Shown: piece after piece, positions 27,739 through 63,252 of the stretch
Layout: each line of letters begins with the position of its first letter
Position numbering within the stretch: position 1 is the stretch's first letter
Assembly (NCBI GenBank): GCA_022539475.1
Contig: VCMS01000021.1
Location: 372,001-436,000, forward strand
Length of the DNA: 64,000 nucleotides
DNA from: Gracilaria domingensis
Lineage: Eukaryota; Rhodophyta; Florideophyceae; Gracilariales; Gracilariaceae
Direction of reading: 5' to 3'
Notes under the pieces: model-generated
What the model was told of the DNA's origin: nothing
Databases searched by the model: none
What the model saw: only the letters and a program-made list of their open reading frames with translations
Program-made: the position numbers and the translations under genes

Positions 27739-29259
27739 ATGTTCGGTTCGGCACAGTCCGCACCGTCGCTGTTTGCCAGCACGCCGGCGCAGAGTGCGAG
27801 TCTGTTCGGCGCAGCTTCGTCTTCGTCTCTTTTCGGTGGAGCTCCTGCGCAGCAATCTTCTTCTTATTTTTTGTTTGGCGGTGCCGCGCCGCAGTCTAGC
27901 GCCGGCTCTTTGTTCGGTGGAGCAGCTGCCTCGGCAAGCTCCGCCTCTCTTTTTGGTGGCGGCGCAGGCTCTTCCTCCTTGTTCGGCGCTCCGGCGAGTT
28001 CGTCATCGTTATTCGGTGCGCCTGCCAGTTCGTCATCGCTGTTTGGACAACAAAGCGGCGGGGGTCTTTTTGGGAGTGCTCCGGTCGCACAGCCGCAGCA
28101 AGCAAGCGCCCAGCAGCAGCAGCAAGTCGAAATCACGCTTCGAACGCGTATTTCGCAACTTCCGCAAAACTTCCAGAACGATCTGTTTGCGGTTGAACGT
28201 CATCTACGCGAGCAGCGCAACAAAGCCGCCCTTCTTTGGACGAAGCGAGGCGATGTGGACGCGAAGCTGTTGCAAACCAAAACGAACGCCGCGGATATAT
28301 CCAGGCTGTTGGTCAAGGTCAGGGCCGAGGTGGATGCTCTGGAGGCGAACGCAAACTCGCTCAAGGCGGCAGTGAGGCTGGAGCGTGCTTCCGCACAACC
28401 TGTCGTGAACGCGTTGGAAAACCTTTCTCGAAGGGGTTACTCTGGCTATCTGGATCAGAATGGTTTACCGTACATGGACACTGGCAGTAGGGTGCAGGCC
28501 GCTCATGTTCCCGATGAGTACTTTATTCGCATTGTCGAGGAGCTGGAAGGTAGGGCAACGGAGTACAAATCGGAGATCGACGAAATCGCGGCATTCTTGA
28601 AAGCACAAGGGGTCATGCTGAGCAGCGGCGCAAGTGGGTTTGGGAACGGAGGCAGCGGTAGTTTATTAGACAACCTATCGCAGAGGTACGTTGACATTGG
28701 CGTTCCCGGTGCCAACACACCTAGCATTCCGCAAGGTACGATAGAGGACGTTATCCGACGCCAGTACGAGTACTTTATGGTGGTTGCTAGTCACATTGCT
28801 GTGGCTCACGAGAACCTGAGAGCGGCACGGGAGCAGTTTCTGCATGTTTTGAAGGAGCGCGACGCCGATGCTCCAAACCCATTCCAGCAAGCGGACATGC
28901 GCGAAAAGGTGGAAAAAGATCGACAACGTCTTCAAACTGACAAACGTGCGGCTGCTGGTGCTTTGCAGTTCGTCAGTCAGATCAACTCCCAAACTCAACC
29001 GTCTTCAGGGCCTGGAACTGTGGTGGCGGCTTCGGGATCCGGCGTGGCTAGTGGCGCGGGGTTATCCACATCGCAAGCTTCGTTGTTCCAGTCTAGCGCA
29101 GCGACAGGCTCGCTGTTTGGTGCATCTGGGGGCGCAGCGAGCGCGGGTAGTGCGTCAGGAGGGCTCTTCGGTGGAGGGTTTAGCTTTGCTGGTAGTTCCT
29201 CCGCGTTAGGGGCCGATAGTGGCGACGCAAGTCGAGCCACAAGACGTAAAAGAGAGTAA
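27739..29259 (+). CDS. NUP58: FG nucleoporin of the Nup58/Nup49 type
   Basis: A 506-residue protein. Residues 1-115 are Ser/Ala/Gly-rich with many SLFG and LFGG repeats. Residues about 130-420 are helical, with heptad-like stretches (FQNDLFAVERHLREQR, YFIRIVEELEGRATEYKSEI, QYEYFMVVASHIAVAHENL). A second FG region follows (ATGSLFGA, GGLFGGGFSFAG), and the end RRKRE is basic. FG repeats on both sides of one central coiled coil are typical of Nup58/Nup45, which with Nup62 and Nup54 lines the central channel of the nuclear pore. Yeast Nup49 has FG only at the N-terminus. The ATG at 27739 starts directly with MFGS. It converges on SPOUT1 with 52 bp between stops. Confidence 0.82.
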   Translation: MFGSAQSAPSLFASTPAQSASLFGAASSSSLFGGAPAQQSSSYFLFGGAAPQSSAGSLFGGAAASASSASLFGGGAGSSSLFGAPASSSSLFGAPASSSSLFGQQSGGGLFGSAPVAQPQQASAQQQQQVEITLRTRISQLPQNFQNDLFAVERHLREQRNKAALLWTKRGDVDAKLLQTKTNAADISRLLVKVRAEVDALEANANSLKAAVRLERASAQPVVNALENLSRRGYSGYLDQNGLPYMDTGSRVQAAHVPDEYFIRIVEELEGRATEYKSEIDEIAAFLKAQGVMLSSGASGFGNGGSGSLLDNLSQRYVDIGVPGANTPSIPQGTIEDVIRRQYEYFMVVASHIAVAHENLRAAREQFLHVLKERDADAPNPFQQADMREKVEKDRQRLQTDKRAAAGALQFVSQINSQTQPSSGPGTVVAASGSGVASGAGLSTSQASLFQSSAATGSLFGASGGAASAGSASGGLFGGGFSFAGSSSALGADSGDASRATRRKRE

Positions 29260-29311
29260 CGCGCTTTAGGCACTGCCGAAACGCTGGGCGCGGAAGCGTT
29301 GTATGATAATT

Positions 29312-30328
29312 TCACACATTGGCGCTGATATATGGCTGCAGCGCAGCCAGCGAGATGAGCAGCGCTTCCTCAGTGCGGATGGTGCGCGATCCTTGATGCG
29401 GGCAGGTATTGATGTAGAAGTCAAACAGATCAGCCACAGGGTAGACGGGATGGGCACTCTGCGGAGATTTGTCGGGGTCGGACGACACATTAAGCTGCTC
29501 GAGGCGCTCGTCGCCGATGACGCTGTGCTCGAGGCCTTGCACTCCGCCAAACACAATGAGAAGGTTGTTAAACGGTGGGAAAGCCGCCGCATCGTGCGCA
29601 AAGGCGTCGATGGGGGTGCCGCGCTCGGAGGTGCCGATGACGAGATCGTACTTGTCGCACACCAAACTATTGGTGAAGACGTCGGACAGGCACTTGGCCG
29701 TGCGCACCTGGTAGCCCCAGTACATGTTCCGCGCGCGCGGGGCGTCGCGGGGCACCAGACGGCCGAAGAGGTACTTGCCCGGCACGTTGCGGTAGTCGTC
29801 GCCGGACGGCGTCATGTCGACGGTGACGCGGGTGGCGGCGGCGACGGGGCGATCGACCTCGACCAGGCGCGGCAGCCCGACGTCGACGAAGCGGGTGGGC
29901 GGCGGGTCGGACGCGGCGCGGCGCGGCGGCGCCCTGGCGACGGCGACGCCCTCGCGGAACGGCACGCAGTCGGAGCGCGCGACGTGGCTGGGGAGCGCCA
30001 GCGGGTTGAGCAGCCCCACCAGCCGCAGGTCGGCGCTCACGGGGAACAGGTGCTTGCGCAGGTACTGCGGCGTCTCCAGGTAGCGCAGCACGCGCGCAAA
30101 CAGCGCCGTCGCATCGGGCGGCGCGCCGTGCGCGCGGCGCGGCGGCGCGTCGGGCGCGCGCTCGTCGAACAGCACCACCTCCGCCACGCGGAACACCGCC
30201 GCCGCGCGCGCCACCTGCCCGGCCACGTACACGCGCAGCTCGGGCGACTGCGCGTTGAGCAGGATGGACGACGGCAGCGCGACGGAGACGGAGCGCGGCG
30301 GGCGCGGCGGGCGCGGCGGGAGCGGCAT
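29312..30328 (-). CDS. SPOUT1: SPOUT-class RNA methyltransferase (SPOUT1/C9orf114 family)
   Basis: A 338-residue protein beginning at the ATG at 30328, followed by a Pro/Arg-rich tip and the family start SVSVALPSSILLNAQSPELR, VAGQVARAAAVF and EVVLFDE. The middle has YLETPQYLRKHLFP and the C-terminal part has DLVIGTSERGTPID, LLIVFGGVQGLEHSV and the tail NTCPHQGSRTIRTEEALLISLAAL, the SAM-binding trefoil-knot region. Family members methylate 28S rRNA or small RNAs, and the human protein also acts at kinetochores/spindle poles. The 5' two thirds are extremely GC-rich (about 29700-30330), unlike the 3' end. The frame stays open upstream of 30328 for about 70 codons of Arg/Ala-rich sequence, which I regard as leader. 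It shares a 373-bp divergent region with the DHHC gene. Confidence 0.92.
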   Translation of the reverse strand: MPLPPRPPRPPRSVSVALPSSILLNAQSPELRVYVAGQVARAAAVFRVAEVVLFDERAPDAPPRRAHGAPPDATALFARVLRYLETPQYLRKHLFPVSADLRLVGLLNPLALPSHVARSDCVPFREGVAVARAPPRRAASDPPPTRFVDVGLPRLVEVDRPVAAATRVTVDMTPSGDDYRNVPGKYLFGRLVPRDAPRARNMYWGYQVRTAKCLSDVFTNSLVCDKYDLVIGTSERGTPIDAFAHDAAAFPPFNNLLIVFGGVQGLEHSVIGDERLEQLNVSSDPDKSPQSAHPVYPVADLFDFYINTCPHQGSRTIRTEEALLISLAALQPYISANV

Positions 30329-30701
30329 GGCGGCGGGGCGCGCGGGGCGCGCGGCTGTGCGGCGCGCGCGCGCGCCGGCGCGTGGCCGCGTAGCGCGCAA
30401 CGTTCGGCGCGCGCCGCTGGCGCGCGCGCGTGCGCCACAGTAAGTCCGCGGCGGGCAACGGCTGCCGAGCGCCAGCGCCCGTAACGGCGCCTCCCGCCGC
30501 GCCCGCTCCACGGCCCACCCCCCTGCGCCCCCCATCGCCCATCGCCCGCGCCCCCACCGACCCCGCCCCCCGCTACTCCTCGCGCCTTCGCGCCTCCGCC
30601 GCCCCCTTCTCCGGCTCCCCCTCCCTTCCCCTCATCCCTCCCCCCCTCCTCGTCCCCCTCCCTCCCCCCCTCCCCCACCGGCCGCCGCCTCCCCCCCCGC
30701 C
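30329..30701. promoter_or_regulatory. Short divergent (bidirectional) promoter region SPOUT1/DHHC
   Basis: Only 373 bp separate two divergent start codons, so both core promoters must lie here or overlap the leaders. The DHHC-proximal half is almost pure pyrimidine on the plus strand, the SPOUT1-proximal half is a CG-rich block. No TATA box is seen. Confidence 0.6.
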
Positions 30702-31736
30702 ATGGGAGCGCGCACCACCCGCTACGCCGCCGACTCCGCGGAGGCCGGCCGCAGCCGCGTTTGGTGCAGCGGCCTCTGCATGACCGGCCCCGACTACCGC
30801 GGCACCCTCCTCACGCTCCTGCTCGTGCTCGCCATCTTCTCCGCAGAGGTCGCCGTCTCCTTCCCCTACCTGCTCACCAACCACTCCTTCGTCGGCCTTC
30901 CCCTGCTCATCCTACTCGCCGTGTCGTTCGCCATCACCGTGTGGTCCGCCTACCTCTGCTCCACCACCGATCCCGGCATCGTTCCGCGCTCGGCCACCCT
31001 CCCGCCCTCCATCGTCGCCTTTCCCAACGTGCGCGAGCGCAGCGTCGAGTACCGCGGCAGACGCATTATCCTGCGTTTTTGCGACACTTGCCGAGTGTGG
31101 CGGCCGCCGCGCACGTCGCACTGCGCGACCTGCAACAACTGCGTCCGACGCTTCGACCACCATTGCCCCTGGCTCGGCAATGACATTGGTCTGCGCAATT
31201 ACCGCAGCTACTTTACGTTTGTCGTCTTCGCTACCATATCTGCTGCCGTTGCAATCACCACCTCTGTACTAACTATTCACTGGACAACCGAACACTTTCG
31301 AGCCGCCTTTCCCGACGAGTCCTATGCCGCCTCAATACGCCGTTCTCTTGGCTTCCGCGCCACCTCCGTCAATTTGATCATTATTCTGCTGTGCTTCCTC
31401 GCGCTGCTTTTCACAGGCGGCTTAACAGGCTTCCATCTGTACCTCATGTCCAATAATATGACTACCGCAGAGCGTTTCAAGAAGCGTGCTAGGAATTCTG
31501 CGCACGTCGAAGACGACTACAGAGGTCTCAAGGCTATATTCTTTTTGCAATGTACGCGCCGACCCGCGAGCGCCGTCACTGAAGGCTTCTTTGGCCCGGC
31601 CTATCCGGAAGAAGATGAGTTTGTTCGACTAATTGACGCACAGGTAGAAGAGGAAAAAGCTCTCATGAACATTCCGGTGCCAACCATTCCCACAGCCCCA
31701 CCGCGCGTCGTATCGATACCCGTCAATCGTATCTAA
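30702..31736 (+). CDS. DHHC palmitoyltransferase
   Basis: A 344-residue protein S-acyltransferase that attaches palmitate to Cys residues of target proteins at Golgi, ER or plasma membrane. Two membrane segments (about 34-56 and 64-86) are followed by the DPG motif (90-92) and the Cys-rich domain FCDTCRVWRPPRTSHC...CNNCVRRFDHHCPWLGN with the catalytic DHHC at 152-155. Two further membrane segments lie at about 171-192 and 225-248. The conserved TTAE segment follows (usually TTxE). The loop and tail have no ankyrin repeats. Closest in layout to plant PAT and animal ZDHHC9/14/18. No intron is needed. A pyrimidine-rich leader precedes the ATG. Confidence 0.95.
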   Translation: MGARTTRYAADSAEAGRSRVWCSGLCMTGPDYRGTLLTLLLVLAIFSAEVAVSFPYLLTNHSFVGLPLLILLAVSFAITVWSAYLCSTTDPGIVPRSATLPPSIVAFPNVRERSVEYRGRRIILRFCDTCRVWRPPRTSHCATCNNCVRRFDHHCPWLGNDIGLRNYRSYFTFVVFATISAAVAITTSVLTIHWTTEHFRAAFPDESYAASIRRSLGFRATSVNLIIILLCFLALLFTGGLTGFHLYLMSNNMTTAERFKKRARNSAHVEDDYRGLKAIFFLQCTRRPASAVTEGFFGPAYPEEDEFVRLIDAQVEEEKALMNIPVPTIPTAPPRVVSIPVNRI

Positions 31737-32208: not shown

Positions 32209-33105
32209 TCAGCTTTTGTCTGAAACGGTGCGCAAAGTCTGTCCTTCATCCTTGGTGTAATTGCGTATCGAATGCATATGATTAAGCGGTCCGTTTCCGT
32301 GTCCTACCTCGATTCCATCTTTAATACCACGAAAGACAAACTCTTTTGCACTACGCACCGCATCACGGAGGTTCTCTCCATGTGCAAGAAACGAAGCTAG
32401 AGCGGCTGCTAGAGTGCATCCTGTTCCGTGCGTGTTTTTTGTCTCAATACGGGGCCCGGTGAACACTTCAAAGTCTCGCCCGTCGTAAAATATATCGGAT
32501 GCTACGCTCATATCCACATTGTCATATGACATATTGCCGTTCCCCTTCATCTCAATAATATGCCCGCCTTTGAGCAAAACGTTTCGACACCCCATTTCTA
32601 TAAGCTTCTGGCATGCACGTCTCAAATCAGACGTTGACTCGATACTCATTCCCGACAACTTTTCTGCCTCCGGCAAGTTTGGCGTTATGATTGTCGCTAC
32701 AGGGAACATCTCCCGAACCAGTGCATCTCTTGTTTCACTGATCACCAAAGAATCTCCGCTGGTGGCCACGAGCACAGGATCAACCACAACATAAGGAACA
32801 TTATATTGACGAATTGCTTCAGCCGTGCATCTAATCACGTCAGAAGTCGGAAGCATCCCGGTCTTAAGGGCCGTGATATGAATATCGGAAAGAACACTTT
32901 TCAGCTGCTTTTCTATAATTGCTACAGGAGGAACATGAACATCTTGCACGCCTTTTGTATTCTGGGCTGTGAGAGCTGTTATAACGCTTGCTCCATACAC
33001 TTTAAGAGCGGTGAAAGTTTTCAGATCCGCTTGTATTCCTGCACCGCCTCCCGAGTCGGAACCCGCGACGGTCAAAACACAAGGAACGCGAAAACTTGGA
33101 GACAT
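32209..33105 (-). CDS. thiD: Hydroxymethylpyrimidine/phosphomethylpyrimidine kinase (ThiD)
   Basis: A 298-residue ribokinase-fold enzyme that phosphorylates HMP and HMP-phosphate to HMP-diphosphate in thiamine synthesis. Residues 12-28 carry [17 protein letters not shown], the substrate-side signature. [11 protein letters not shown] (108-118), [10 protein letters not shown] and LLKGGH follow, and the anion-hole motif GTGC is at 227-230 with the Cys typical of ThiD. The protein ends without a ThiE or TenA extension, so it is not one of the fused thiamine enzymes of plants (TH1) or yeast. The ATG at 33105 is the first in frame; I see no clear plastid leader (MSPSFRVP...). Transketolase in this window needs the final product, thiamine diphosphate, but there is no sign of joint regulation. 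Confidence 0.95.
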
Positions 33106-33994: not shown

Positions 33995-35515
33995 ATGCAA
34001 CCTGGAGATTCCTCAAACCCCGAACCTGGCGAAAGAAGAGAACGCAACTTCGGTGCTATTGAACTACTAAATTCTTTGGTCGGGTTTCCCGCTGTTACGT
34101 CCATCGAGAGTGAAGAGTATTCGAATCTGAACTCTTTTGATCCTGTTCGCACCAGTGCCCAAAACAACGTGAAGACTGCAGAGGATAACTCTGTTGGAAT
34201 TTGCGGCATTGGGCATTGCAAAGATACGAAAGATATCTCCGCTGTAGATAAGCATTTGCCTCATAAAGAACACCAGCGGGGATTCACGAAAGGCCCAGCT
34301 GCGTCAGTGACTGTGACTGAACCAACGAGTTCACCTTCAATGTTTGCTCAAGAATCAGGAACAGAAATTCAAAGCCCATCCGCAGAGGATAAGACTACCG
34401 TCCAAGTTGTTGCGGACGAAGAACCAAGATTTCACGACTCGAAAACCGTTATGGACCGAAGACTGCAAGAGGCAAACGACGTTACTGGGGCGAGAGAGCG
34501 ATCAAAACAGAAGAAGGTAAAAACACTGTCGTTTCTCGAAGATCCTTCCCCCACAGGTGTTGGCGATGCCACTACACGATTTGGGACTCCGGTAAACGAG
34601 CAGGATCTGGACCTGAACAAAACCCCTTCTTCAACAGTTCGTATGCGAGGACGTGCATCGAAGAGAGGCAATGGAAAGTCTAAGCGCAGCCAAACGCCAG
34701 CGGCTCCTCCCATAAACATGGCAGACTACGGAAGCGATGATGATATAGCTGCTGATTTGGGAGAGGCTGCTTTCGTTCAGTCTGACACTTCTGCACGAAA
34801 CCATATTGCGAAATCTGGGTCGAGAAGTACAAAATCAAACGATGCTCGCTCCATCTCGAATTCTCACGAACGCAGCGCTAGACATGCCAATCCGACACAG
34901 AAACTACATGGGCGCACGCATCGTAATGAAGAAAGGGTCTCAACGAGAGCCCGGGTATCCTTCGAGCTTCCCGAATCCTCAAATGCGAATGTTGCTGAGC
35001 CAGTAACCAAGCCAAAATGTCACACTCCATTTCCGAGAGATACTATTGATCTTCTCGCTGGTTCTGATAGTGAAGATAGTGACGGAACTCCATTAGAATG
35101 CCGTGCAAACGTCTCCCTCTCGAAAGGCACTAGAAAGCCTACTGAGAGCGTTCAGACGAAATCCAGTGTGATGGATAGTCAGGGATCGTTGCAGAACGTC
35201 AAACCTTTCTGGATGCCCGAGTTGAAAGCGGAAACCAGCGACTGCACTAACTTCCAGACGCCATGCCCCTCGAAAAAAGTGAACTTCACGGTCAAGTCTG
35301 TTCGAACGAGTTCAACTAAGACAGCAGCACCACTGTCAACACAACTGGCTCAATGTATCAGCTTCGTCAGAATTGGGGCACCAAGGAATAAGTTGACGTT
35401 TGAGCGAGCAACGGAAACACTTAACATTTCTCCGAGTTTACCCAGTCTCCAACGACCCAAGCTTGTCCCAGGGACTTATTGTTGCACATGTGGGCAGAAT
35501 GTATCCCATCTTTGA
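33995..35515 (+). CDS. Unrecognised disordered protein with C-terminal Cys pair
   Basis: I do not recognise this 506-residue protein. It is rich in Ser, Thr, Glu and Lys and appears mostly disordered, with basic patches (RMRGRASKRGNGKSKRSQ) that could be a nuclear signal and acidic serine clusters (LLAGSDSEDSDGT) of casein-kinase type. The short patch MADYGSDDDIAADLG is acidic and helix-like. Only the last 60 residues look ordered: AQCISFVRIGAPRNKLTFER, then a CCTCG pair just before the end. A nuclear role is a guess from composition. An acceptor-like CAG lies just upstream at 33971-33973 and the frame stays open past it, so the true start may be in an upstream exon. It converges on the hydrolase gene (100 bp). 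Confidence 0.7.
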   Translation: MQPGDSSNPEPGERRERNFGAIELLNSLVGFPAVTSIESEEYSNLNSFDPVRTSAQNNVKTAEDNSVGICGIGHCKDTKDISAVDKHLPHKEHQRGFTKGPAASVTVTEPTSSPSMFAQESGTEIQSPSAEDKTTVQVVADEEPRFHDSKTVMDRRLQEANDVTGARERSKQKKVKTLSFLEDPSPTGVGDATTRFGTPVNEQDLDLNKTPSSTVRMRGRASKRGNGKSKRSQTPAAPPINMADYGSDDDIAADLGEAAFVQSDTSARNHIAKSGSRSTKSNDARSISNSHERSARHANPTQKLHGRTHRNEERVSTRARVSFELPESSNANVAEPVTKPKCHTPFPRDTIDLLAGSDSEDSDGTPLECRANVSLSKGTRKPTESVQTKSSVMDSQGSLQNVKPFWMPELKAETSDCTNFQTPCPSKKVNFTVKSVRTSSTKTAAPLSTQLAQCISFVRIGAPRNKLTFERATETLNISPSLPSLQRPKLVPGTYCCTCGQNVSHL

Positions 35516-35615
35516 AAGGCCAGATGCGTTTTAGTTCGCGAACGACAGTAAATTTACTCATCAATGTACTTTTCTGTTGCATTGACAAGGGATGTACCTT
35601 TTTCTATATGTAATG

Positions 35616-36704
35616 TCATGATGAGTAACTCTTAGTTGAAAAGAATAAAGAAAGTACATTAATGAGACTAAGAACTTCTGGGATGTCTGCGACCGAGAGA
35701 GGTTGCTGATCCCCATGGTTTAGAAGGCGGGTTACTTTGGCTGATGTAGAAACTTTTCCCACTTTGTCGATAGCTTGCTTGAGCACAGCATTCTGTTCTG
35801 GTGGGATAACATCATCGGTTTGTGCGTGAATCAAAACTACGGACTTGCAACTGAGACGATCAACATACTCGATGGGAGACAATCTAGTCAGGGTATCTTT
35901 GTGATATTGATGACAAACATCCATTTTCTCTTTCAGAAAGCCAATGTCGTCGCGAAGTCGATTGAAAGTCTTAGCCTCTTCTTTGTTCTCTTCCATTAGT
36001 CTTTCCAATATATTAGACTTTTTCCCCACATTACGATAGTGGTCATCATCGCAGTAGGCTCGAAACATTGCCTCCAGCTTCTCGTTCGGTGGATGCCAAA
36101 AGTTGGCAAACATTGCGTTCAGTGCATACCTTGAATCCTCTTGATCACAACGTGTCACCATATGATGTTTACTGCTGTGAAAATCAGCATGGGCCCCAAC
36201 ACACAGAAAGGAGTCACTGGCGTTCACGATCGTAGAGGCAATGAGGGAGAGCCCAATAGGAATACAAGGGCCCACAAATGACAAGGTGCCAGACTTACAC
36301 AAAGACTTGTCTCGAACTATGCTGCGCATAATGCGCACAATAGGTTCGTACTCAAGTTTCATTTGGGCTAGAGATGTTATGTGCGGCACTATCACCACGT
36401 TGTTCGGGTTCGCGGAGGCAATCGCACGAGCCAAAACGATCACTCTGGGATCGCTGCTTCCAGAAGGCGCGTTCCCATGAATGACAACTATGGTTCGCGA
36501 ACTGGGACGCAGAGGGCGTGAGGAATAGATTCTTGTGTTACAATCTGCGACCCAGTACGACACCGAACGAATCTTTGAAGGGGCGGCGTCCGGAGCAACT
36601 AAGGTAAGAATAAACAACGCAGCTTGCAGGCGAGAAGACAGAAAGGACGGCAGATAGTCCACAAAGAGATGAAGGATAAAGAAAACGATCGATAGAAAAT
36701 TCAT
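35616..36704 (-). CDS. Membrane-anchored alpha/beta-hydrolase-like protein with Cys at the nucleophile position
   Basis: A 362-residue protein. Residues 1-37 are hydrophobic and probably a signal anchor. TIVVIHGNAPSG (71-82) is the oxyanion-strand motif of alpha/beta hydrolases. The nucleophile elbow reads LSFVGPCIPIG (141-151), so the usual G-x-S-x-G is replaced by G-P-C-I-P with Cys147 in the serine position. A helical cap region follows (180-290). VVLIHAQTDDVIPPEQ and LLNHGDQQPL supply plausible Asp and His of the triad. Some true hydrolases use Cys (dienelactone hydrolase), so activity is possible; a non-catalytic role is equally possible. The substrate is unknown. ATG at 36704 is preceded by stops. 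A hydrophobic tail ends the protein. Confidence 0.75.
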   Translation of the reverse strand: MNFLSIVFFILHLFVDYLPSFLSSRLQAALFILTLVAPDAAPSKIRSVSYWVADCNTRIYSSRPLRPSSRTIVVIHGNAPSGSSDPRVIVLARAIASANPNNVVIVPHITSLAQMKLEYEPIVRIMRSIVRDKSLCKSGTLSFVGPCIPIGLSLIASTIVNASDSFLCVGAHADFHSSKHHMVTRCDQEDSRYALNAMFANFWHPPNEKLEAMFRAYCDDDHYRNVGKKSNILERLMEENKEEAKTFNRLRDDIGFLKEKMDVCHQYHKDTLTRLSPIEYVDRLSCKSVVLIHAQTDDVIPPEQNAVLKQAIDKVGKVSTSAKVTRLLNHGDQQPLSVADIPEVLSLINVLSLFFSTKSYSS

Positions 36705-36830: not shown

Positions 36831-37298
36831 TTGGAAGGCACGGCAAGAGAAGCGACAAAGGGATACTGCTTAAAAAATGGCGCCCTCCTCCGGAGACTCG
36901 AACGCAGATACGTTTCACTTCCTTGGCTGGGAAGTTGGGCACGCAAGGGCAATGTGGATCGCGTGCACCCTTTGATGTCAGAGAAAGAGAAACAGAATAT
37001 GGGGTATACTCTGTCCTACGGAGGGGTTGTATTTTCGGATTCTCTTGTGAAGGAGCCGTTTTACCAGACACACCCACCCATGCAGCTGTCCCTTCCGCTC
37101 TCAGTGACACATCAATGCAGGATAACGTTTGCAACGATGCTTGCTGGGAAGGTCACCGACAAAGCAGCGAAGGAACTGCGACAGGAGATGCTCACAGCGA
37201 TGGTGATTGGCGATGCATCTCATGGACATGTCAATTCTTCGGCCAACCATGCGATCATGCATGATGCGGACAAATTACGCTGCGACTGCATTATGTAG
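36831..37298 (+). CDS. Possible small gene, unrecognised
   Basis: A 155-codon frame from the ATG at 36831; an internal ATG at 36975 would give 107 residues (MSEKEKQNMGYTLSYGGVVF...). The C-terminal half alternates helix-like and polar stretches (KVTDKAAKELRQEMLTAMVI) and reads more like protein than most intergenic frames here, and it ends CDCIM. I find no family resemblance. If real it would break the strand alternation of this region. Confidence 0.25.
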   Translation: MEGTAREATKGYCLKNGALLRRLERRYVSLPWLGSWARKGNVDRVHPLMSEKEKQNMGYTLSYGGVVFSDSLVKEPFYQTHPPMQLSLPLSVTHQCRITFATMLAGKVTDKAAKELRQEMLTAMVIGDASHGHVNSSANHAIMHDADKLRCDCIM

Positions 37299-46589: not shown

Positions 46590-46603
46590 TGAGCAACTGT
46601 GGA

Positions 46604-52724: not shown

Positions 52725-53761
52725 CTAACCATGGCCAATGTAACGTTCATGCATGATCCCAATTTCATTCACCAACGCCTCTTCCACACATTCGTTCGCA
52801 TTATTGCGCTTAAGAACTCGTGTAGCAGCTGTGTCGAAAATCAACACTTCTTGATATCTGGTCTGCAACAAGTTCCCGATCACGCAATTCACCCCATAGA
52901 GCTGAAGCGCAGCTTTTGACTTTTTCACTAAGAGGTCTGAGTCTGTTTCAAGCTATGAAGATGTCGACATCATACAAGTTTGCGCTAGTTAGTCGACGTT
53001 CCCATTGCGTCGGTTCTTACGGAGGAGAGCACATTTATTGCCTGTGACACAAAACTTACCTTGAACGATGCGATAAAAGCCTCGGGAGCCCATTCTTGCC
53101 GAAGCAACCCGAGGCATTTTGGGACCCGATTCAAGGTAATCACCAAGTCTTCCGCGTGAGATTGAATTTTATGTTTGGGAAGTCGATCATAAGGAATGTA
53201 GAAGTCTGATACAGCGGCTGCTAGAAAGAAAAGTACTGACTTTCCCAACGGTCTCAGAGTTTCTGCCACTGCAAATAAGTTAAAGAGATACTCTTGAACT
53301 GTTTTATATGTGATAAAGAATATACGATCTTGTGTCTCCTTCCGAGATTTCAGTACTTTCGCTATGGATTCGTCCCGAAACTTTATGTCACTGCCTGATA
53401 TTTGACTTATATCGGCAATTCTTTGTGGTGATATATCTCTCAGGAAAGGAAGCTTCGAACCTTCACGGTACAAGAAAACAACGGCGTACGCATTTCGTTC
53501 GAAACCGTTACCGTCTTGTCCGATATGGAGCTGTCTCACAAAGTTTTCAGCGGATCTAGCCCCCCTGGTACCTGTGCTGAAATTGTTAAGATATCTTACC
53601 GCTCTCTGTTCTAAAGGAACTGATGTACCGCCGGAAGTGACGACAGCAATCCTTAGGTTTCCAGTTTTTGCGCGATGAACAAATGATTCCAGCTTCGCTT
53701 TTTCAAAACCCTCTGAAATAGGGACTGTTCCGAAGACATTAAAAGAACGTGAATCGCCCAT
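52725..53761 (-). CDS. PPCS: Phosphopantothenate-cysteine ligase, one intron (52953-53059)
   Basis: Joins 4'-phosphopantothenate with cysteine in coenzyme A synthesis. Exon 1 is 53060-53761 and exon 2 is 52725-52952; together 309 residues, the size of human PPCS. Motifs: VVTSGGTSVPLE (41-51), YLNNFSTGTRGARSAE (57-72), LAAAVSDFYIPYD and HKIQS in exon 1. Exon 1 ends at EAFIASFK. The 107-nt intron has donor GTAAGT, branch-like GACTAAC and acceptor TAG. Exon 2 begins LETDSDLLVKKSKAALQLYG and continues VNCVIGNLLQTR, matching the eukaryotic PPCS C-terminus in order. Without splicing the frame stops 25 codons later and loses the last 76 codons. The ATG at 53761 is the first in frame. It is divergent from DPH2. 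Confidence 0.92.
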
Positions 53762-54266: not shown

Positions 54267-55832
54267 ATGCCTGGGATCTCGGAGGATGTTTTGAAGTCAA
54301 TGGACTGCTGGCTACCAGTGTCTCGCGGTCTAAACGGTTTCGATGCCAAGACATCTGAAGAAGTGATCAACGTCTATCACGTTAAGAAGACTGCGGAAGT
54401 TATCTATAATTATGCACACGGAAATGTGTTTTATGTCGCTCTTCAATTTCCTGATCACATGTTGCATGTAGGCCCATTTATCTGTGAGACCCTACGCTTA
54501 CTAACGGAGGCATATAAGGTCAATCACGAGGATTGCCCAACCTTTGGTTTCTTTTTGCTCGGAGATACATCCTATGGGGAATGCTGCGTAGACGAGGTTG
54601 CAGCGCAACACCTGTCATGTGATCTTGTTGTGCATTACGGAAACGCGTGTTTGTCTCCAACTCGAACCCTGCCGGTGTTATATGTTTATCCAAGAGCTAC
54701 CTTCGGGCACCCTAGAGATGCCTGCACAATATTTAGGGAAAGCATAATACAAATCGCTCAGGCTACAGACGCGGAGAAAGTTATTATTCTTTTCGATCTA
54801 GAGCTCGAAAGTTGTTTCACAAACGACAGCTTTCAAGCGGGGGAACATCAAGTGTCGTTTTCAAGTCTCCAAGTTGACATAGATATTCAGGTCGCTGCCC
54901 TTCGAATCTATAATGCTCAGACCGTGCGAACACCAGGCACCGTAGGCTCAAATGGGGATGGTGACGGAACGGTAGTCGGACCTCATGTGATTAGCTTTGG
55001 AACGGTACCAGCGGACAAAACAGCATTTGTCTGGTATACTCGATGCGAGGAAGATGCTAGTTATCCCCCATTGCTTCGAAATGCGGCCATTCAGTTGGGT
55101 TCGGGAGCATCCAACCCATCACGCAAATTCTTCTCGGTATCGCTTGTTGGTGAACCACGCGACGCAGTTCAGCTGATTGAACCTTCGAGAATCTTGCGGA
55201 AGCGCTTTGCCGTTGTGGGGAAAATACAAGGAGCAGAAAGAGTTGGAATCATCCCAGGGACTCTAGGTGTTTCTGGAAACACTGATATCATTGAAAGATG
55301 CAAGGCGCTCGTCAATCTGGCTGGAAAACGCCCCTACGTGATCCTTGTCGGGAAACCGAACCCCGTAAAGTTGGCGAACTACCCCGAAATTGACGTCTTT
55401 GTACTCGTGGCATGTCCACAAAACGGCTTAATTGATGATAAGGAATACTTGCGACCGATCGCAACCCCGTTTGAATTGGAAGCAGCCATTCTCATGGATG
55501 GGGATATATTCAGTGAGCCATACAGTATGGATTTTCAAGAACTGCTAAAGAAAGAGCTTCGCAGCCCTGACTATGCAGACGATGAGAGGCAATTAATCTC
55601 CAGAAGCAGCAACTGGTCACTTGCAGTAGATGAGGGCAGTAGTGGAGCCGGTTATTTGAAGAGCAGGCACTGGCAAGGCCTGAAATATGGAGAAGGAGGC
55701 TCTGATGATGAAACTAGAGTAGAACAGCTTCCTACTCTTATTGAACGTGGGGAATACGGAATTGCAAGTGGTTACAGCAGGGAGCAGGAAGCGAATCTTA
55801 AGGGAAACGAACAGTCGTATCAACCCCATTGA
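54267..55832 (+). CDS. DPH2: Diphthamide biosynthesis protein DPH2
   Basis: A 521-residue protein that pairs with DPH1 in a radical-type iron-sulfur enzyme which adds the 3-amino-3-carboxypropyl group of SAM to a histidine of elongation factor 2. Motifs in order: YVALQFPDHML, FLLGDTSYGECCVDEVAA, DLVVHYGNACLSPTRTLPVL with a cluster Cys, then YVILVGKPNPVKLANYPEID and VFVLVACPQNGLID with the C-terminal Cys, and PIATPFELEAA. Length and motif order fit DPH2 rather than DPH1. The C-terminus includes SRHWQGLKYGEGG, which matches the 'R.w.GL' end of the family. Start ATG at 54267 is in a good context (ACCAAAATGC). EF2 itself is not in the window. It converges on the Sec14 gene. Confidence 0.95.
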   Translation: MPGISEDVLKSMDCWLPVSRGLNGFDAKTSEEVINVYHVKKTAEVIYNYAHGNVFYVALQFPDHMLHVGPFICETLRLLTEAYKVNHEDCPTFGFFLLGDTSYGECCVDEVAAQHLSCDLVVHYGNACLSPTRTLPVLYVYPRATFGHPRDACTIFRESIIQIAQATDAEKVIILFDLELESCFTNDSFQAGEHQVSFSSLQVDIDIQVAALRIYNAQTVRTPGTVGSNGDGDGTVVGPHVISFGTVPADKTAFVWYTRCEEDASYPPLLRNAAIQLGSGASNPSRKFFSVSLVGEPRDAVQLIEPSRILRKRFAVVGKIQGAERVGIIPGTLGVSGNTDIIERCKALVNLAGKRPYVILVGKPNPVKLANYPEIDVFVLVACPQNGLIDDKEYLRPIATPFELEAAILMDGDIFSEPYSMDFQELLKKELRSPDYADDERQLISRSSNWSLAVDEGSSGAGYLKSRHWQGLKYGEGGSDDETRVEQLPTLIERGEYGIASGYSREQEANLKGNEQSYQPH

Positions 55833-56250: not shown

Positions 56251-57324
56251 TCATCTGTTGGAATCGAATTCAGATGCGACGTCTGGCCATATAGCTGGGA
56301 AAATTGTTTCGAGCTCGCCTCCAAGAAATGTGGGAATGGATTTTGTCGCAATGTACTTGCTGAGAGTAGCAGCGGGGTCATCCTCTGAAGCCCAAACGAT
56401 CTTTTCCTTGGCACCCGCATCTATGATGGGGCTTACGACAGTATACGCTGCTCGAATGGTGACCGGATAGTTGACGAGGAAAACGTAACCCAATCGGTCT
56501 GGATAGTAATCCTGTAATGTCTGAATGCCCTCTTTGACAAGGCGGTATGGGGCATTCCTGCGGATGGACCATTCGCGAAAGTCCAAAATGATTATGATCT
56601 CATCCAAGATGTACGTATGAGCGAAGTACATGGATTCGAGAAACGATAGCAAAGCGTTCTGAAAGTCCGCACGATCGACTTTTCTCTTGTCGAGGAGGCG
56701 CGGGAGACCATACGCGACCGGCTGCTTGCAAGTCTCGGGATCAGATACAATGTGCATCGGGAAGCAAGAGTTGGGTCGGAGCATGTTGATAGCACTTTGA
56801 GAAAGGTACAGGTGCATATCAGTTGCTTCGCGCCATTTAAAGGTGTTGAGCATCATAACAAACGCGTCATGAGAGTTGCCCTGGCGCGCTCGGAGAAACT
56901 GGACAAGTACGCGACGGCGACTGTGCACACTTTCACAGAGCTCAATGATGAGACAATCGTCCGACATGGAGGCGTACTTGGGGCTGAGATTGCCGACTGG
57001 TCCGAAAGTATGCTCCACTTTGGCGCTGAGCTCAGCTAAGGCTGTGGGCACAGGGGCGGGTTGAGAATCGTTAGATGAGGTGTGGAACAACTTGCGCATG
57101 GACGGCAGTGAGGGAACGTGCGGCACTGAGACGTGCGGCACATGTGGCAGCGATACATGCGGCAAATGGGATCGCGACAACGGCGAATGAGGTCGGACTT
57201 CATTGGACGCCGTCGCCGGTGCACCATGTGAGTCGGTAGGCTCCTCCCGCGACAGAGACGAAGAGCGCATCGGCTCGGAAGAAGAGGCTCCTGCGGCGCC
57301 GGAGAACGGGATGTAACGCCGCAT
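56251..57324 (-). CDS. Sec14-like CRAL-TRIO lipid-transfer protein
   Basis: A 357-residue protein. Residues 1-95 are disordered with a short tandem motif (LPHVSLPHVPHVSVPHVP). The CRAL-TRIO-N helices lie at about 110-165 (RRRVLVQFLRARQGNSHDAF, MMLNTFKWREATDM). The lipid-binding CRAL-TRIO domain follows (about 190-345) with PVAYGLPRLLDKRKVDRADF, IIIILDFREWSI, LQDYYPDRLGYVFLVNYPVT and a closing IATKSIPTFLGGELE. Members carry phosphatidylinositol or other lipids between membranes. The P-x-R-L-G-x-x-x-x-x-N-x-P signature is intact, so lipid binding is likely. No GOLD or other C-terminal domain. ATG at 57324 is followed by MRRYIPFSG; the upstream region is a GC-rich leader. Confidence 0.9.
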   Translation of the reverse strand: MRRYIPFSGAAGASSSEPMRSSSLSREEPTDSHGAPATASNEVRPHSPLSRSHLPHVSLPHVPHVSVPHVPSLPSMRKLFHTSSNDSQPAPVPTALAELSAKVEHTFGPVGNLSPKYASMSDDCLIIELCESVHSRRRVLVQFLRARQGNSHDAFVMMLNTFKWREATDMHLYLSQSAINMLRPNSCFPMHIVSDPETCKQPVAYGLPRLLDKRKVDRADFQNALLSFLESMYFAHTYILDEIIIILDFREWSIRRNAPYRLVKEGIQTLQDYYPDRLGYVFLVNYPVTIRAAYTVVSPIIDAGAKEKIVWASEDDPAATLSKYIATKSIPTFLGGELETIFPAIWPDVASEFDSNR

Positions 57325-57814: not shown

Positions 57815-59455
57815 ATGTCGCGTACTAAGAAGGCCGCCAAGGCCGCTAAGGCCGCCAAGAGGAAGCTCAAGGAGGCCGCAGCCGCTGACGGGACGGATGC
57901 CAAGGCCGCGCCGCCGGCAGAGGTGAAACCCTCGAAGACTACCAAGCATAGCTCCAAGGCGCCATCTGCCGTCGTGTCCAACGCAAACGCCGTCCAGCTC
58001 CCTGATTCGCATTCCAAGGGCAGCTCTAAGAAGGACAAGAAGAAGAAGAAGAGCAAGAAGAAGCCACCAACCCCACCCCCCGAGTCCGATGACGACTCTA
58101 GTGCTGACGAAAGTGATACATCTGGCAGCAGTAGTGAGGAAGAACAGCCGAAGGCAAAAACAACCCGAGCTCGTCCCGCGGCAAAGAAGCACAAGAAGCC
58201 GGGAAAAACTGAAGAAGATGACGATGTAAGTGATGAGGACTCCAGCAGCGATGAACAACCCAATTCACCACCCCCAAAGGCTAAAGCAGCCAAACATCCA
58301 AAGTCCAAAGTCCGTGGAAAGCCCGCGGACGACGACAGCTCAAGCTCGGAAGATGAGTCATCGTCGGAGGAGGAGGAGGAGGATGTCCCCAAAGAGGTCA
58401 AGCCTAAGAAGCACACCAAAGTTGGTGCTAAGGGCCGCAAGCCAGCCGGGGGTGACGAAGAAAGCAGTGAAAGTGATGATTCTGATAGCGACGATGAAGT
58501 AGCGTCTCCAAAGCAGAACGGAGCGCCTAAACCTTCCTCGAAAGCAACCTCCAGTAGCAGTGAATCAGATAGTGATGGAAGCTCTGAGAGCGAGGCTGAC
58601 CCGCCAGGCAAGCTTTCCAAGAAAGATCAAGCTCAAGACAGCGAAAGCTCCAGTTCTTCTGATGATGAAAGCGATGAACCTAAACAAAAGGCCAAGTCTC
58701 TCAAACCGGTCAAGGCTCAGGCAAACGGAAAGACGGCACCCACCGATTCTTCGGAAAGTTCCAGCGAATCAGGGGACAGTTCAAATGATGACGAAGAGGA
58801 GGAGAAGGCTCCTATGGAAGTTGATAAGGTGCCTAACTCAGAAAACGATGCTGGCGCTGATTTTGCGGAGAAGAAGAGGAAGCGAGATTCGTCCCATTTT
58901 GAGGCCCAGCCCAATAAGCGGCACCAGCCGGCTGCCGCTGCGGGTGAAGAACTTCGCGTGTTCGTCGGAGGTGTGCCATTTTCGTGCACAGAAGACGAAC
59001 TGGGTAGTCTCCTCTCGGAATGTGGTGAAATTACTGATCTCTTCCTCCCGCGAGACAGAGAGTCTGATCGTATTCGCGGCTATGCCTTTGTGAGCTTTGC
59101 GGACTCTGCTAGCGTAGAAGCAGCACTTAAGCTGGACGGTACCTATTTGAAAGGCAGGCGCTTGAGGATAAATCCCGCGGGATCCAAGCCTAGCAATGGA
59201 CCAAGACGAGGTGGTCCTCGGGGACGTGGTGGTGGACGTGGCGGACGCGGAGGTCGTGGGGGTCGCGGTGGATACGTGGGAGGTTTTGGTGATGGCGGCG
59301 GTGGGCGTGAGTGGGGTCGAGGTGGTGGTTATCGAGGAGGTCGTGGGAGAGGTTTCGGCAATCGCGGAGGGTTTGGTGGTCGTGGGGGCTCGGCAAACTT
59401 TGCAAATGGTGGAGTTAAGGGAACGAAGACCACATTTGAAGATGATAGTGACTGA
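57815..59455 (+). CDS. Nucleolin/Nsr1-like RNA-binding protein with one RRM
   Basis: A 546-residue protein with the three-part build of nucleolin. Residues 1-365 are Lys-rich (AAKAAKAAKRKLKEAAAA) alternating with acidic serine tracts (DDSSSSEDESSSEEEEEDV, ESSSESGDSSNDDEEEE). A single RRM lies at about 378-455, with RNP2 as VFVGGV and RNP1 as RGYAFVSF. The C-terminus (about 460-525) is a Gly/Arg-rich GAR domain (RGGRGGRGGRGG). The end TKTTFEDDSD resembles the TTFDDSD end of Nsr1/nucleolin. Such proteins act in rRNA transcription and processing in the nucleolus. Animal nucleolin has four RRMs and plant/yeast forms two; one is unusual. ATG at 57815 begins MSRTKKAAKAA. No intron. Confidence 0.88.
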   Translation: MSRTKKAAKAAKAAKRKLKEAAAADGTDAKAAPPAEVKPSKTTKHSSKAPSAVVSNANAVQLPDSHSKGSSKKDKKKKKSKKKPPTPPPESDDDSSADESDTSGSSSEEEQPKAKTTRARPAAKKHKKPGKTEEDDDVSDEDSSSDEQPNSPPPKAKAAKHPKSKVRGKPADDDSSSSEDESSSEEEEEDVPKEVKPKKHTKVGAKGRKPAGGDEESSESDDSDSDDEVASPKQNGAPKPSSKATSSSSESDSDGSSESEADPPGKLSKKDQAQDSESSSSSDDESDEPKQKAKSLKPVKAQANGKTAPTDSSESSSESGDSSNDDEEEEKAPMEVDKVPNSENDAGADFAEKKRKRDSSHFEAQPNKRHQPAAAAGEELRVFVGGVPFSCTEDELGSLLSECGEITDLFLPRDRESDRIRGYAFVSFADSASVEAALKLDGTYLKGRRLRINPAGSKPSNGPRRGGPRGRGGGRGGRGGRGGRGGYVGGFGDGGGGREWGRGGGYRGGRGRGFGNRGGFGGRGGSANFANGGVKGTKTTFEDDSD

Positions 59456-59663: not shown

Positions 59664-60850
59664 TTATCCGCTAGATGAGTTCTCACTTACAGCGGCAACA
59701 GAATCTGCGAACCAGCGGCGACTGTCAAAATATGTTTCCTCGACGTCAAAGCCGGCGGACTCTAAACTCTTGTGGATGGAACTCACAGTGTACTTTCGCG
59801 ACGTTTCTGTGTGGATGGCTTCATATGCTTCGAAATTGAATTCGAGAGTTTCGGATCCATCACTACCTTGGGTTGAGTTCTCCGGTTTCATCGAGACAGT
59901 CTGAGCTTCAGTTGAGATCAAGAAACTCAAAGCGGCCCCGTGTATAGGGTCGTAACTGGCGTAATGAATAAACTTTGAACGGTTGAAATCCATGTTCAGC
60001 TCTTGATTCATTCTGGTAAGAAGGTTTAGATTGAAATCCCTAGTAACTCCCAGAGAATCCGAGTAGGCCCGCAGGGTGATGCGAGGGTCTTTCTTAATAT
60101 CTGTGCCGACCATGAAGAGGTCTCCTGGTTTGAGGCTGTTTCGGATTGTCCTCAGAAATTCGGCTTCGCTCTCCTCCGAAAAGTTTCCCAGTGAAGATCC
60201 CAAGAACAGGACAACTGTTTTCCGATTCGACGAAGATACTACATGTTGTACGCATTCGACATACTCCCCAACTATTCCATGGACGTTTATGGGTTTGTCT
60301 TCGAAGTGATGGCCCAAAGACTTAAACAACAACTCCATAGCACGTCGGGATATGTCGACTGGGATGTATTCAAAATCAACCTCTGCATCGATAAGGACCT
60401 CCAACAATACCTTAATCTTCCGGCCATCTCCAGCTCCAAGTTCTATAATGTTGATGGTTTGGGATCCATCCAAATCTTTGAAGTGGTTTTTGACTATCTT
60501 TGCGGACTGGGTTCTGAGAATTTCCATTTCACAGCCAGTCAAATAGTATTCTTCCAGTTCAGTTATATCTGCGTAAATGTCTATCCAAACGCATTGGTAG
60601 CAGATAAACATAAAAGTGTCAGAAGTTGGCCACAGAGAACCTTCGAGATGCAACGATATTCGGTCACAAACGGCCGAAACGTATTACTCGCAGGTCACAT
60701 ACCACTTCCATTGTTGTCATAAAAGTACATGGAAGAGAGTTCTTTTCCTGAACCGGAGAGACCTTTGATAACATCCGAACGAAAAATCCTTCTGGCCGCT
60801 TCTTTCTCCTCATTACGTATGGTGGTTAATTCGAAGGATCTGTAAGCCAT
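59664..60850 (-). CDS. EgtD-like SAM methyltransferase (histidine N-alpha-trimethylation type), one intron (60581-60702)
   Basis: Exon 1 is 60703-60850 and exon 2 is 59664-60580; together 354 residues. The join reads FYDNNGSDIYADITELEEYY, equal in length and pattern to the EgtD signature 'FYD..GS.LF..IT.LpEYY', which fixes the acceptor at GGATAG (not the TACGCAG 12 nt later). Donor GTATGT. Exon 2 has the SAM motif IIELGAGDGRK, PVDISRRAME, LFLGSSLGNF, SLGVTRDFNLNLL and IHTETSRKYTV. In EgtD the last motif (E-I-S in bacteria) and the N of LGS-x-GN line the histidine pocket. EgtD trimethylates histidine to hercynine for ergothioneine. The protein is stand-alone, without the EgtB-type sulfoxide synthase fused in fungal Egt1. 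Substrate assignment is by similarity; related enzymes act on other amino acids. Confidence 0.85.
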
Positions 60851-60999
60851 TGTATAATAGACAATATATGAGAGTTTGCCTACAAGTTGAACTCAGAACA
60901 GCTGAGGAAGAAATGGATCTTCAGGATGCGCACCAGCTCGATGATGGAAAAGCCAAGAAGGAAGCCATTGTGCTCGCCCTTATGAATGGTGTCGCGTGA

Positions 61000-61425
61000 T
61001 CACGACGGTCCGGATGGGGCCGGTGGCCCAGGTTCCCATGGCTTACGTCTCGAACTGAAGCAGTTTCGATACGCAAGTACCATGCAAAATAACCACGCGC
61101 ACGAATATCTGTCATTTGTTGCCTCTTGTATGGACTCAAGCAGGGTTTCATAGATACCTTGCTCGTCCCAGCCAATGCCATCCTGCTTTCGCCAGAGCGG
61201 GAGCTGGAGAAATCTCTCCATGAACGGTGGAGTCGTGTGGATGTTGCGTGCATCTAGATAGTTCCGACTTGGAAGACACGCAGAGGATGCGGATTTGTGT
61301 GCGGCCGACATTCGACGGCATTTGTGTTCAGATTGGAGATTTGATTGGATGGATTCGATGCAGAAGGTTTCTTCCTGTAACATGTTAACCTTACCCCTGG
61401 GATACATGATGTTCGATGGTTTCAT
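61000..61425 (-). CDS. Doubtful small gene, unrecognised
   Basis: A 141-codon frame; an internal ATG (about 61309) gives MSAAHKSASSACLPSRNYLD followed by a plausible helical stretch (WDEQGIYETLLESIQEATND). Near its end a donor-like GTAAGC occurs (about 61042), so it might be the first exon of a longer gene, but no family resemblance was found and no second exon is obvious. Confidence 0.25.
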   Translation of the reverse strand: MKPSNIMYPRGKVNMLQEETFCIESIQSNLQSEHKCRRMSAAHKSASSACLPSRNYLDARNIHTTPPFMERFLQLPLWRKQDGIGWDEQGIYETLLESIQEATNDRYSCAWLFCMVLAYRNCFSSRRKPWEPGPPAPSGPS

Positions 61426-61797: not shown

Positions 61798-61815
61798 GGT
61801 ATCCTGAAGGATACC
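61798..61815. repeat. Perfect inverted repeat GGTATCCT-GA-AGGATACC
   Basis: 8-nt arms with a two-base centre, about 80 bp before the TATA-like box of the RING gene; related TACCCTTG and GGTATATC text flanks it. Confidence 0.8.
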
Positions 61816-61892
61816 CTTGTATCTACCGGCCGAACCTGCCACTTTGGGCGAAGCTTGAACATGCTTTTAAGAGCCCCACACCGAAAGGGCGT

Positions 61893-61900
61893 CATATAAG
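61893..61900 (+). promoter_or_regulatory. TATA-like element upstream of the RING gene
   Basis: CATATAAG. If used, transcription would begin near 61925 and the first in-frame ATGs would be 61957 and 61984, well before the ATG at 62341 chosen for the RING protein. This leaves the start open. Confidence 0.4.
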
Positions 61901-62340
61901 TGGCCACGTTGCCGAAAACGAAACCGCCGCGAGGACCCGATTGGGGTGGGAATGATATGCGGCAGCGGTGCCGCCGACGGCCAATGGCGTCGACGCACGT
62001 CGCGCGATACGTCGGCACCGCACGCGTGCCAATCTCGCCACCGTCACGAGTTCGGAAGCCAGCATCGCTCGGCGCGGTAAGCCAATCGCTCCATCGCCTC
62101 GCACCGCCACCGCCCTCCCCAATCGCCCCAACTCCTCCGCCGCACTCGCGACTTGCAGTCCATCACCCCTCCTCTACGGCACCGCTCCGCCTCGTGTCGC
62201 CTCCCGTCGGTTCTCTCACCACTGCCGGCCCTTCCGCTTGTGCCTACGTGCTCCGCTCTCCGTTGCTCCCGACCGCCCCCGTCTGCCTTGCGTCCGCCTC
62301 GCGTTATACCTCGTCCTCGTGCTCCGCGCTCGCTCGCATC

Positions 62341-63252
62341 ATGCCTTTCCGCCGCATCTTTCCGGGCGAGGACTCCTTCCCGCACCGCGGGCGGCGCCCG
62401 CGCGTCTCGTTTCGTAACTCCTATCGCCAGGGCGTGCATCATCGTCGCCATTCCGCTCTTACAACAGCACAAGTCTCTACGCATCCGTACTCTGATACCG
62501 CAGCCCATCTCAAGCCAATATACATTTACCCCGGGCTGTTGAGAATTGTGCGCGAGAAGGCTATTGCCCTGGACAACCAATGCCCAGCAGTGCACTACAA
62601 ATGCCAAAAGTGCACCGAGCAAAACCCGAACTCGTCGCCGACACATCAATGCGAACATAGTGTGTGCTGCTCCATCTGTCTCGAAAAGTTCCATAGCAAG
62701 GACTTGGTGCGAAAACTGCCGTGCGATGCCAATCATATGTTTCATTCCAAATGCATTCTAGATTGGTTCGCCTTTCAACAACGATGCCCTCTTTGCAACG
62801 AACATGTGTCCAACAGTCTGCAAAGGCCCGCCCCACTCCGCGCAGAGTCGCCCGGCCTTCCGCTCGATTTTCGGCGACGCTTTGACGACCGTAGAGACAT
62901 TTGCCAAAGAGTTTTGCGGTTTCTGGGCGTTGATACCGACCTTGCACGTGGCTCAAGAGAAATCAGAGACGCACCTCCGGCCGATCGCCCACTTCGCGCC
63001 GATGTTGGTGATATCTTTTGCCCATCTGCTTCCAATCCCGAGCAAGATCGATTCCAGTCAAGCCCGGATATTGGACACGAACTTCACCAACAAGACGAAA
63101 GGGAAAGCTCTGAACATAGCAGAGCGTCTGGCACGAATTCGACGTCTTCGGATACTAATAAGTGGCAACAGAGATCCAAAGGGCCTCGAACATATTCGTA
63201 TATCGTGCACGATAACGTTCGAATGGAAATGAACGCCCGTATTCCTGTATGA
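62341..63252 (+). CDS. RING-H2 E3 ubiquitin ligase-like protein
   Basis: A 303-residue protein from the ATG at 62341. The RING-H2 finger is at 110-152: C110, C113, C128, H132, H135, C138, C149 and C152, with the typical CSICLEKF start, HSKCILDWF centre and CPLC end. An extra Cys/His group just upstream (YKCQKCTEQ and HQCEHSVC, 87-109) may bind another zinc. The C-terminal half is polar and disordered. It would recruit an E2 and ubiquitinate unknown targets; no membrane segment is seen. The frame is open for about 147 codons upstream (Pro/Ser/Arg-rich) with ATGs at 61957 and 61984, so a longer protein with a basic Pro-rich extension is possible. The C-rich composition of that stretch resembles leaders of other genes here, so I favour 62341. 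Confidence 0.85.
   Translation: MPFRRIFPGEDSFPHRGRRPRVSFRNSYRQGVHHRRHSALTTAQVSTHPYSDTAAHLKPIYIYPGLLRIVREKAIALDNQCPAVHYKCQKCTEQNPNSSPTHQCEHSVCCSICLEKFHSKDLVRKLPCDANHMFHSKCILDWFAFQQRCPLCNEHVSNSLQRPAPLRAESPGLPLDFRRRFDDRRDICQRVLRFLGVDTDLARGSREIRDAPPADRPLRADVGDIFCPSASNPEQDRFQSSPDIGHELHQQDERESSEHSRASGTNSTSSDTNKWQQRSKGPRTYSYIVHDNVRMEMNARIPV

Follow-up and report, generated by a model that had tools for sequence, protein, structure and literature searches.

A nineteen-gene block of alternating orientation

The stretch of DNA analysed here (termed the window; 64,000 nucleotides, positions 372001-436000 of contig VCMS01000021.1, or C21, in the 77.9 Mb, 680-contig assembly of the red alga Gracilaria domingensis) contains 19 consecutive genes, at 27739-63252, whose orientations form the string +-+-+-+-+-+-+-+-+-+, with a strand switch in each of the 18 neighbour pairs. 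An earlier note on this sequence had called attention to this run; its count of 18 of 18 was reproduced gene by gene, and the alternation is confirmed as genuine. Its figure for the entire window, switches in 23 of 27 neighbour pairs, returned unchanged when the 28 genes present were recounted. Most of these genes are single long frames; the count includes a gene on the minus strand, with its start at 1040, that extends past the left edge, and treats two transketolase frames (15431-16960 and 17029-17703) as one gene. Genes for phycobilisome linkers, present on eight contigs besides the plastid-like C680, mark the host as a red alga; the cryptophyte phycoerythrin alpha family had no match, in a search run without a positive control.

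The block opens with a gene for an FG-repeat nucleoporin, Nup58 in the earlier note (gene 1; 27739-29259, +; Pfam Nucleoporin_FG, 33.2 bits; coding score 96.3), followed by a putative RNA methyltransferase (gene 2; 29312-30535, -; Methyltrn_RNA_3, 3.4e-90, matched from residue 83 onward), the start of which is placed at the first ATG and may really lie further in. Next come a DHHC palmitoyltransferase (gene 3; 30702-31736, +; DHHC, 1.2e-37), a phosphomethylpyrimidine kinase (gene 4; 32209-33105, -; Phos_pyr_kin, 3.1e-95), a protein without Pfam match (gene 5; 33995-35515, +; coding score 70.9), a possible alpha/beta hydrolase (gene 6; 35616-36704, -; sub-threshold BD-FAE/Peptidase_S9; coding score 79.8) and a further protein without match (gene 7; 38133-40079, +; coding score 134.4). 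The gene for eIF2A (gene 8; 40220-42134, -; eIF2A, 1.6e-49, the profile being entered at 48) consists of a main frame, 40220-41785, and, in a different frame, an upstream portion that begins at about 42134. The series continues with a protein without match (gene 9; 43231-45567, +; coding score 158.3), a DFRP/Tma46-like protein (gene 10; 45644-46399, -; DFRP_C, 1e-19), a WD40 protein (gene 11; 47114-49255, +; WD40, 45.9 bits), another protein without match (gene 12; 49480-50793, -; coding score 109.0), the GINS subunit Sld5 (gene 13; 51843-52640, +; SLD5_C, 1.7e-13) and a DFP-domain protein, a type that we take to be phosphopantothenate-cysteine ligase (gene 14; 52985-53761, -). It ends with genes for a diphthamide synthesis protein (gene 15; 54267-55832, +; Diphthamide_syn, 1.4e-55), a CRAL/TRIO protein (gene 16; 56251-57324, -; CRAL_TRIO, 5.6e-24), an RRM protein (gene 17; 57815-59455, +; RRM_1, 3.1e-18), a member of the histidine-specific methyltransferase family (gene 18; 59664-60611, -; Methyltransf_33, 1.2e-78) and a RING protein (gene 19; 61957-63252, +; zf-RING_2, 3e-11).

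Thus 14 of the 19 genes match Pfam above the curated cut-off, one matches below it, and four have no match. Coding scores are at least 45.7 in 18 of them and unreached by any null frame of similar length, such frames being scarce (3 to 18) and numbering zero for seven of those 18 genes. The exception is gene 14, whose low coding score of 7.1 is matched by one of 17 null frames and whose DFP match stands at 4.8e-9. Two doubtful small frames were not counted. Both had been singled out beforehand, by their positions 36831 and 61425, as interrupting the pattern if real; counting both indeed leaves 18 switches in 20 pairs (p 2e-4 against 50%), but neither is supported as a gene. The former, with its best ATG at 36975 (36975-37298, +), is a borderline case, its score being equalled by 6.8% of 132 null frames, and it has no Pfam match. 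The latter (61000-61425, -) is not coding by score, being equalled by 54% of 68 null frames.

The nine convergent gaps of the block measure 52, 76, 100, 140, 208, 224, 344, 418 and 472 bp (median 208), and its nine divergent gaps range from 166 to 1428 bp (median 889). Eight of these stop-to-stop distances had been listed before; the 344 bp gap was absent from that list, its values of 84 and 134 bp could not be matched, its 90 bp spacer belongs to a gap outside the block (6851-6942), and the median of 134 bp drawn from it is corrected to 208. The 166 bp divergent gap takes the first ATG as the start of gene 2 and, as the recognised domain begins only at residue 83, may in truth be wider. With the start of eIF2A placed near 42134, the longest divergent gap becomes shorter: the interval 41312-43230 is part coding, and the real gap is about 1.1 kb.

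The chance of about 1 in 260,000 once attached to this run is arithmetically valid for a single pre-chosen run (0.5^18, or 1 in 262,144), but is the wrong yardstick here because the run was picked by eye out of a long sequence. The proper comparison is with the frequency at which neighbours switch strand in this genome.

Strand switches outside the block

A curated sample was assembled from C21, between 272001 and the contig end, and from 20 kb of each of five other contigs, by gene calling, Pfam searches on many genes, merging of split genes and removal of transposons. Among its neighbour pairs outside the block, 41 of 64 switch strand (64%; confidence interval (CI) 51-76; p 0.016). By origin these are 22 of 33 to the right of the window on C21, 10 of 16 to its left, 2 of 6 on C3, 3 of 5 on C37 and 4 of 4 on C11, so that 49 of the 64 pairs come from the contig that carries the block. 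The remaining two contigs, C62 and C130, gave no counted pairs, their stretches having been judged by eye to be retrotransposon pieces (one C130 frame was searched in Pfam, with no match). A RING match directly after the last C11 gene (C11:219129, -, the gene being on the plus strand) was left uncounted and would give one more switch.

Some curated genes are supported by coding score alone. Codon score as the sole criterion of a gene was rejected, since genes for PAP_fibrillin, Pex2_Pex12, mitochondrial carrier and DFP proteins score as low as null frames; borderline frames were decided by Pfam where scanned, and same-strand pieces were joined by hand. Transketolase and a proteasome subunit were merged on Pfam matches in both pieces, XPD-like and SNF2 helicases on a match in one piece together with adjacency, and a pair of frames at -15115 to -14021 (window frame) on adjacency alone. 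The part of C21 to the left of about -17,400 in that frame was dropped as transposon-rich, a call made mainly by eye from first residues; of four of these frames searched in Pfam, two have no match, while a MULE transposase domain was recognised in one and a Ulp1 peptidase domain in another. Also dropped were frames at 108320, 109985 and -18527 and, at the far right, a Plavaka transposase gene (842 amino acids; L020:3517-6045, -) near the right end of C21.

A second alternating run, of 11 switches, lies outside the block at about 483,455-511,218 of C21; it fits a modest bias and would also fit a bias special to this contig. Long one-strand gene runs are the arrangement of dinoflagellates and trypanosomatids; unlike their one-directional arrays, the curated stretches of this red alga lack such runs, the longest same-strand run among the curated orientation strings being four.

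How readily a given switch frequency yields a run of 18 was simulated for an assumed 9,000 genes (four Gracilaria assemblies are given counts of 6,807-9,460; PMC10388701). The chance of at least one such run is 0.25-0.39 at a switch frequency of 0.61, 0.49-0.65 at 0.64 and 0.98 at 0.71, as against 0.005-0.013 at 0.5, the ranges depending on the frequency and on whether island breaks are inserted. It follows that at most a modest bias, perhaps limited to gene-dense DNA, suffices for the run, and that zero bias is hardly enough.

Gene spacing and explanations of the run

We lean, with some reserve, toward reading the block as a real but ordinary arrangement of genes within a gene-dense and transposon-poor island, a chance extreme of a mild bias (about 60-70%) toward opposite-strand neighbours. 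Alternation here is best read as a tendency already known from compact genomes and not as a strict rule. Under tight packing, facing 3' ends would need hardly any intervening DNA, and a pair of 5' ends pointing apart could use one promoter-sized gap, while a tandem pair would need a terminator and a promoter in a single gap and would have to avoid read-through into the next promoter; tandem pairs might therefore survive less often as spacers shrink. We infer that packing is the cause, that promoter gaps are shared and 3' ends overlap, and that the bias reaches beyond C21.

Spacing in the curated sample shows the convergent packing of compact genomes. Across all 82 pairs, block included, median gaps are 314.5 bp for convergent (n=30), 889 for divergent (n=29) and 1097 for tandem pairs (n=23), the convergent gaps being much shorter than either of the others (p 7e-5 and 1e-5, respectively). 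Sixteen gaps fall below 300 bp, of which 15 are convergent, one is divergent and none is tandem. If spacing were additive, a tandem gap would be expected near 602 bp (halfway between the convergent and divergent medians), and the observed median exceeds this by 495 bp (bootstrap 171 to 1788). Either an added cost of tandem pairs or a sharing of space by divergent genes would lead one to expect such an excess, which does not discriminate between the two. Outside the block, switches occur in 34 of 48 pairs (71%) with spacers under 2 kb and in 7 of 16 at 2 kb or more (Fisher p 0.07).

A wider sample was drawn from matches to eleven Pfam families throughout the genome (540 gene entries, paired by script). 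For several families it takes in part of the candidates (for example, 20 of 104 scored for AAA, 150 of 1208 for WD40 and 19 of 126 for ABC), and it omits the plastid-like contig C680 and, for WD40, matches in frames longer than about 1,200 amino acids. Single frames of about 1,300-1,500 amino acids with several WD40 repeats occur on many contigs (e.g. C45, C56, C284, C220 and C15) and possibly represent an expanded family. Different-family pairs less than 3 kb apart numbered 12 opposite and 16 same before filtering, which removed four same-frame pairs (C4, C25, C68 and C133), one C21 pair already counted, and duplicates on C564 (opposite) and C370 (same). Two contig pairs, C133/C564 and C369/C370, share two matches each at near-equal spacing and with equal scores, and are perhaps duplicated haplotypes that the assembly retained. 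Pairs from one family less than 3 kb apart (1 of 7 opposite) were excluded as likely tandem duplicates; their inclusion would give 12 of 28.

Several results weigh against the mild-bias interpretation. On other contigs the close domain-hit pairs are opposite in 11 of 21 cases, lending no support to a bias, and at 3-5 kb the counts are 3 opposite and 16 same, or 3 of 17 once two pairs on C21 are set aside. Calibration on the curated spacing indicates that only a quarter of pairs in that range are true neighbours, and about 0.5 opposite is expected whatever the bias. Taken jointly, the two sets of counts are slightly better described by a switch frequency of 0.4-0.5 (log-likelihood -6.8 to -7.2) than by one of 0.64 (-7.7), a difference of less than one log unit, and for this reason the bias may be peculiar to C21; on contig C3 2 of 6 curated pairs switch. 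Raw, unmerged frames switch in 53-63% of cases to the right of the window, depending on score cut-off, and in 20-47% in the transposon-rich left part. As to spacing, divergent and tandem medians do not clearly differ (p 0.11), and with the block left out the tandem excess amounts to 409.5 bp and is not significant (bootstrap -110.5 to 1734.5). Finally, the two same-strand frames merged on adjacency (L009:4885-5979, -), which lie 48 bp apart with DUF493 in one and no match in the other, are perhaps a single gene in two pieces or a pair of tandem genes set very close; splitting them, their merging being unproven, would give 41 of 65 switches (p 0.023) and one tandem gap below 300 bp. Close domain-hit and curated pairs do not differ significantly from each other (Fisher p 0.44), and pooled they switch in 52 of 85 cases (61%; CI 50-72; p 0.025). 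The same-strand share among the 3-5 kb pairs outside C21, 14 of 17, is a separate observation, exceeding what any tried switch frequency predicts.

The packing rule for the whole genome that the earlier note had entertained is thereby reduced to a tendency at best: the curated pairs, mostly from C21, speak for it and the domain-hit pairs do not. The outcome that the note had set against such a rule, switching near 50% with the block as an outlier, is not what the curated sample gave, although the domain-hit sample would fit it.

These same domain-hit counts, and contig C3, are what speaks for plain chance, whereby a genome without general orientation bias happened to produce a block that was noticed for being striking. 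We regard this as unlikely: only 0.015-0.019 runs of 18 are expected at a frequency of 0.5 in 8,000-10,000 genes, the curated pairs outside the block depart from parity, and C21 carries its second run of 11 switches. That run, joined to the unbroken block, could also be taken as the mark of a strong structural rule, in the genome or on C21, under which selection against tandem pairs, conserved modules of divergent pairs or some similar active force keeps the genes alternating, and tandem pairs are exceptions. The absence of tandem spacers under 300 bp among the 82 curated pairs and the excess of tandem spacing over the additive expectation point the same way, and divergent-pair modules set end to end should stay alternating even if inverted. 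Yet tandem pairs make up 23 of the 64 curated ones outside the block, and 10 of 21 close domain-hit pairs share a strand, and we consider a rule of this strength rather improbable. A form of it confined to gene-dense islands, where alternation would be the default (above 70%), tandem pairs selected against and long runs maintained, we also view as doubtful; were it true, red algae would have reached the brown-algal arrangement independently, and such runs would mark islands spared transposon insertion.

Functional coupling would instead have bidirectional promoters co-regulate divergent partners, and antisense 3' ends mediate mutual regulation in convergent pairs. The dimensions of the block allow for it: start codons are less than 1 kb apart in five of nine divergent pairs, which are possible candidates for shared bidirectional promoters, and convergent gaps are 140 bp or less in four of nine (52-140 bp), where the distances make overlapping antisense 3' ends likely. 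However, Pfam names give no obvious link between partners (five of the 19 genes being unnamed), and the sequence upstream of the starts of 86 genes is on average rich in C when read in the gene's own direction, which hints at a distinct 5' flank for each partner and not at a single symmetrical element. A motif search round the starts and stops of these 86 genes gave no clear poly(A) signal. Moreover, close divergent pairs in the brown alga Ectocarpus are described as having one common nucleosome-depleted region and uncorrelated expression (Pearson 0.054 for pairs under 600 bp; PMC7784034), and because these pairs share an open region yet are uncorrelated, shared regulation is not to be assumed here. 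Coupling of this kind appears very improbable as the source of the run.

Related arrangements and other features of the window

The closest parallel is again Ectocarpus, a multicellular alga whose genome, like the present one, is not minimal, and in which adjacent genes are stated to tend to opposite strands, with many divergent pairs (PMC7784034). In that account 61.7% of genes flanking gaps adjacent to transcription start sites belong to divergent pairs genome-wide, and median gaps are 409 bp for divergent and 2293 bp for tandem pairs (PMC7784034), whereas the corresponding medians in G. domingensis, from an unrelated lineage and mostly from one contig, are 889 and 1097. Closely adjacent genes on alternate strands have been invoked in kelp as the source of merged transcript contigs (PMC6742357); the description is the same as ours, but is made as a passing statement on brown algae. 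For the chromerids Chromera and Vitrella, one of whose genomes is compact, an excess of head-to-head pairs among close genes is reported with the data not shown (PMC4501334); close algal neighbours thus lie head-to-head beyond chance there as well, though the passage concerned deals only with head-to-head pairs under 1 kb and does not mention long alternating runs. Bidirectional promoters are elsewhere ascribed to divergent genes less than 1 kb apart (PMC2871058), a class into which the five block gaps fall when measured between start codons, not transcription starts. The literature searched yielded no account of alternating strands in a red alga; as its coverage is incomplete, this is weak evidence of absence.

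If the bias extends to the whole genome, an unusual gene arrangement would be common to red and brown seaweeds, although the two are not closely related, and read-through avoidance and shared open chromatin would become testable as alternative causes of tandem avoidance. Alternation with 50-500 bp between stops also means that unstranded RNA sequencing may merge neighbouring genes in annotation.

Outside the block, the window contains a single 5S ribosomal RNA gene (12413-12534, -; 78.4 bits), its sole Rfam match, adjoining a gene for plastid-type ribosomal protein S1 (10917-12086); no transfer RNA gene was found in the window by ARAGORN with the bacterial code. The transketolase gene (15431-17703, +) is divided into frames about 70 bp apart, by either a short intron or a frameshift. 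A gene of ferric-reductase/NADPH-oxidase type (6942-9890, -) has its FAD and NAD binding domains almost 500 residues apart, and 23463-27005 (+) encodes a pump of Na+/K+-ATPase alpha type, 1180 amino acids long, in an alga. Elsewhere in the assembly, a single frame of 1130 amino acids (L012:5995-9387, -) combines enoyl-CoA hydratase, 3-hydroxyacyl-CoA dehydrogenase and thiolase in a fused beta-oxidation enzyme.

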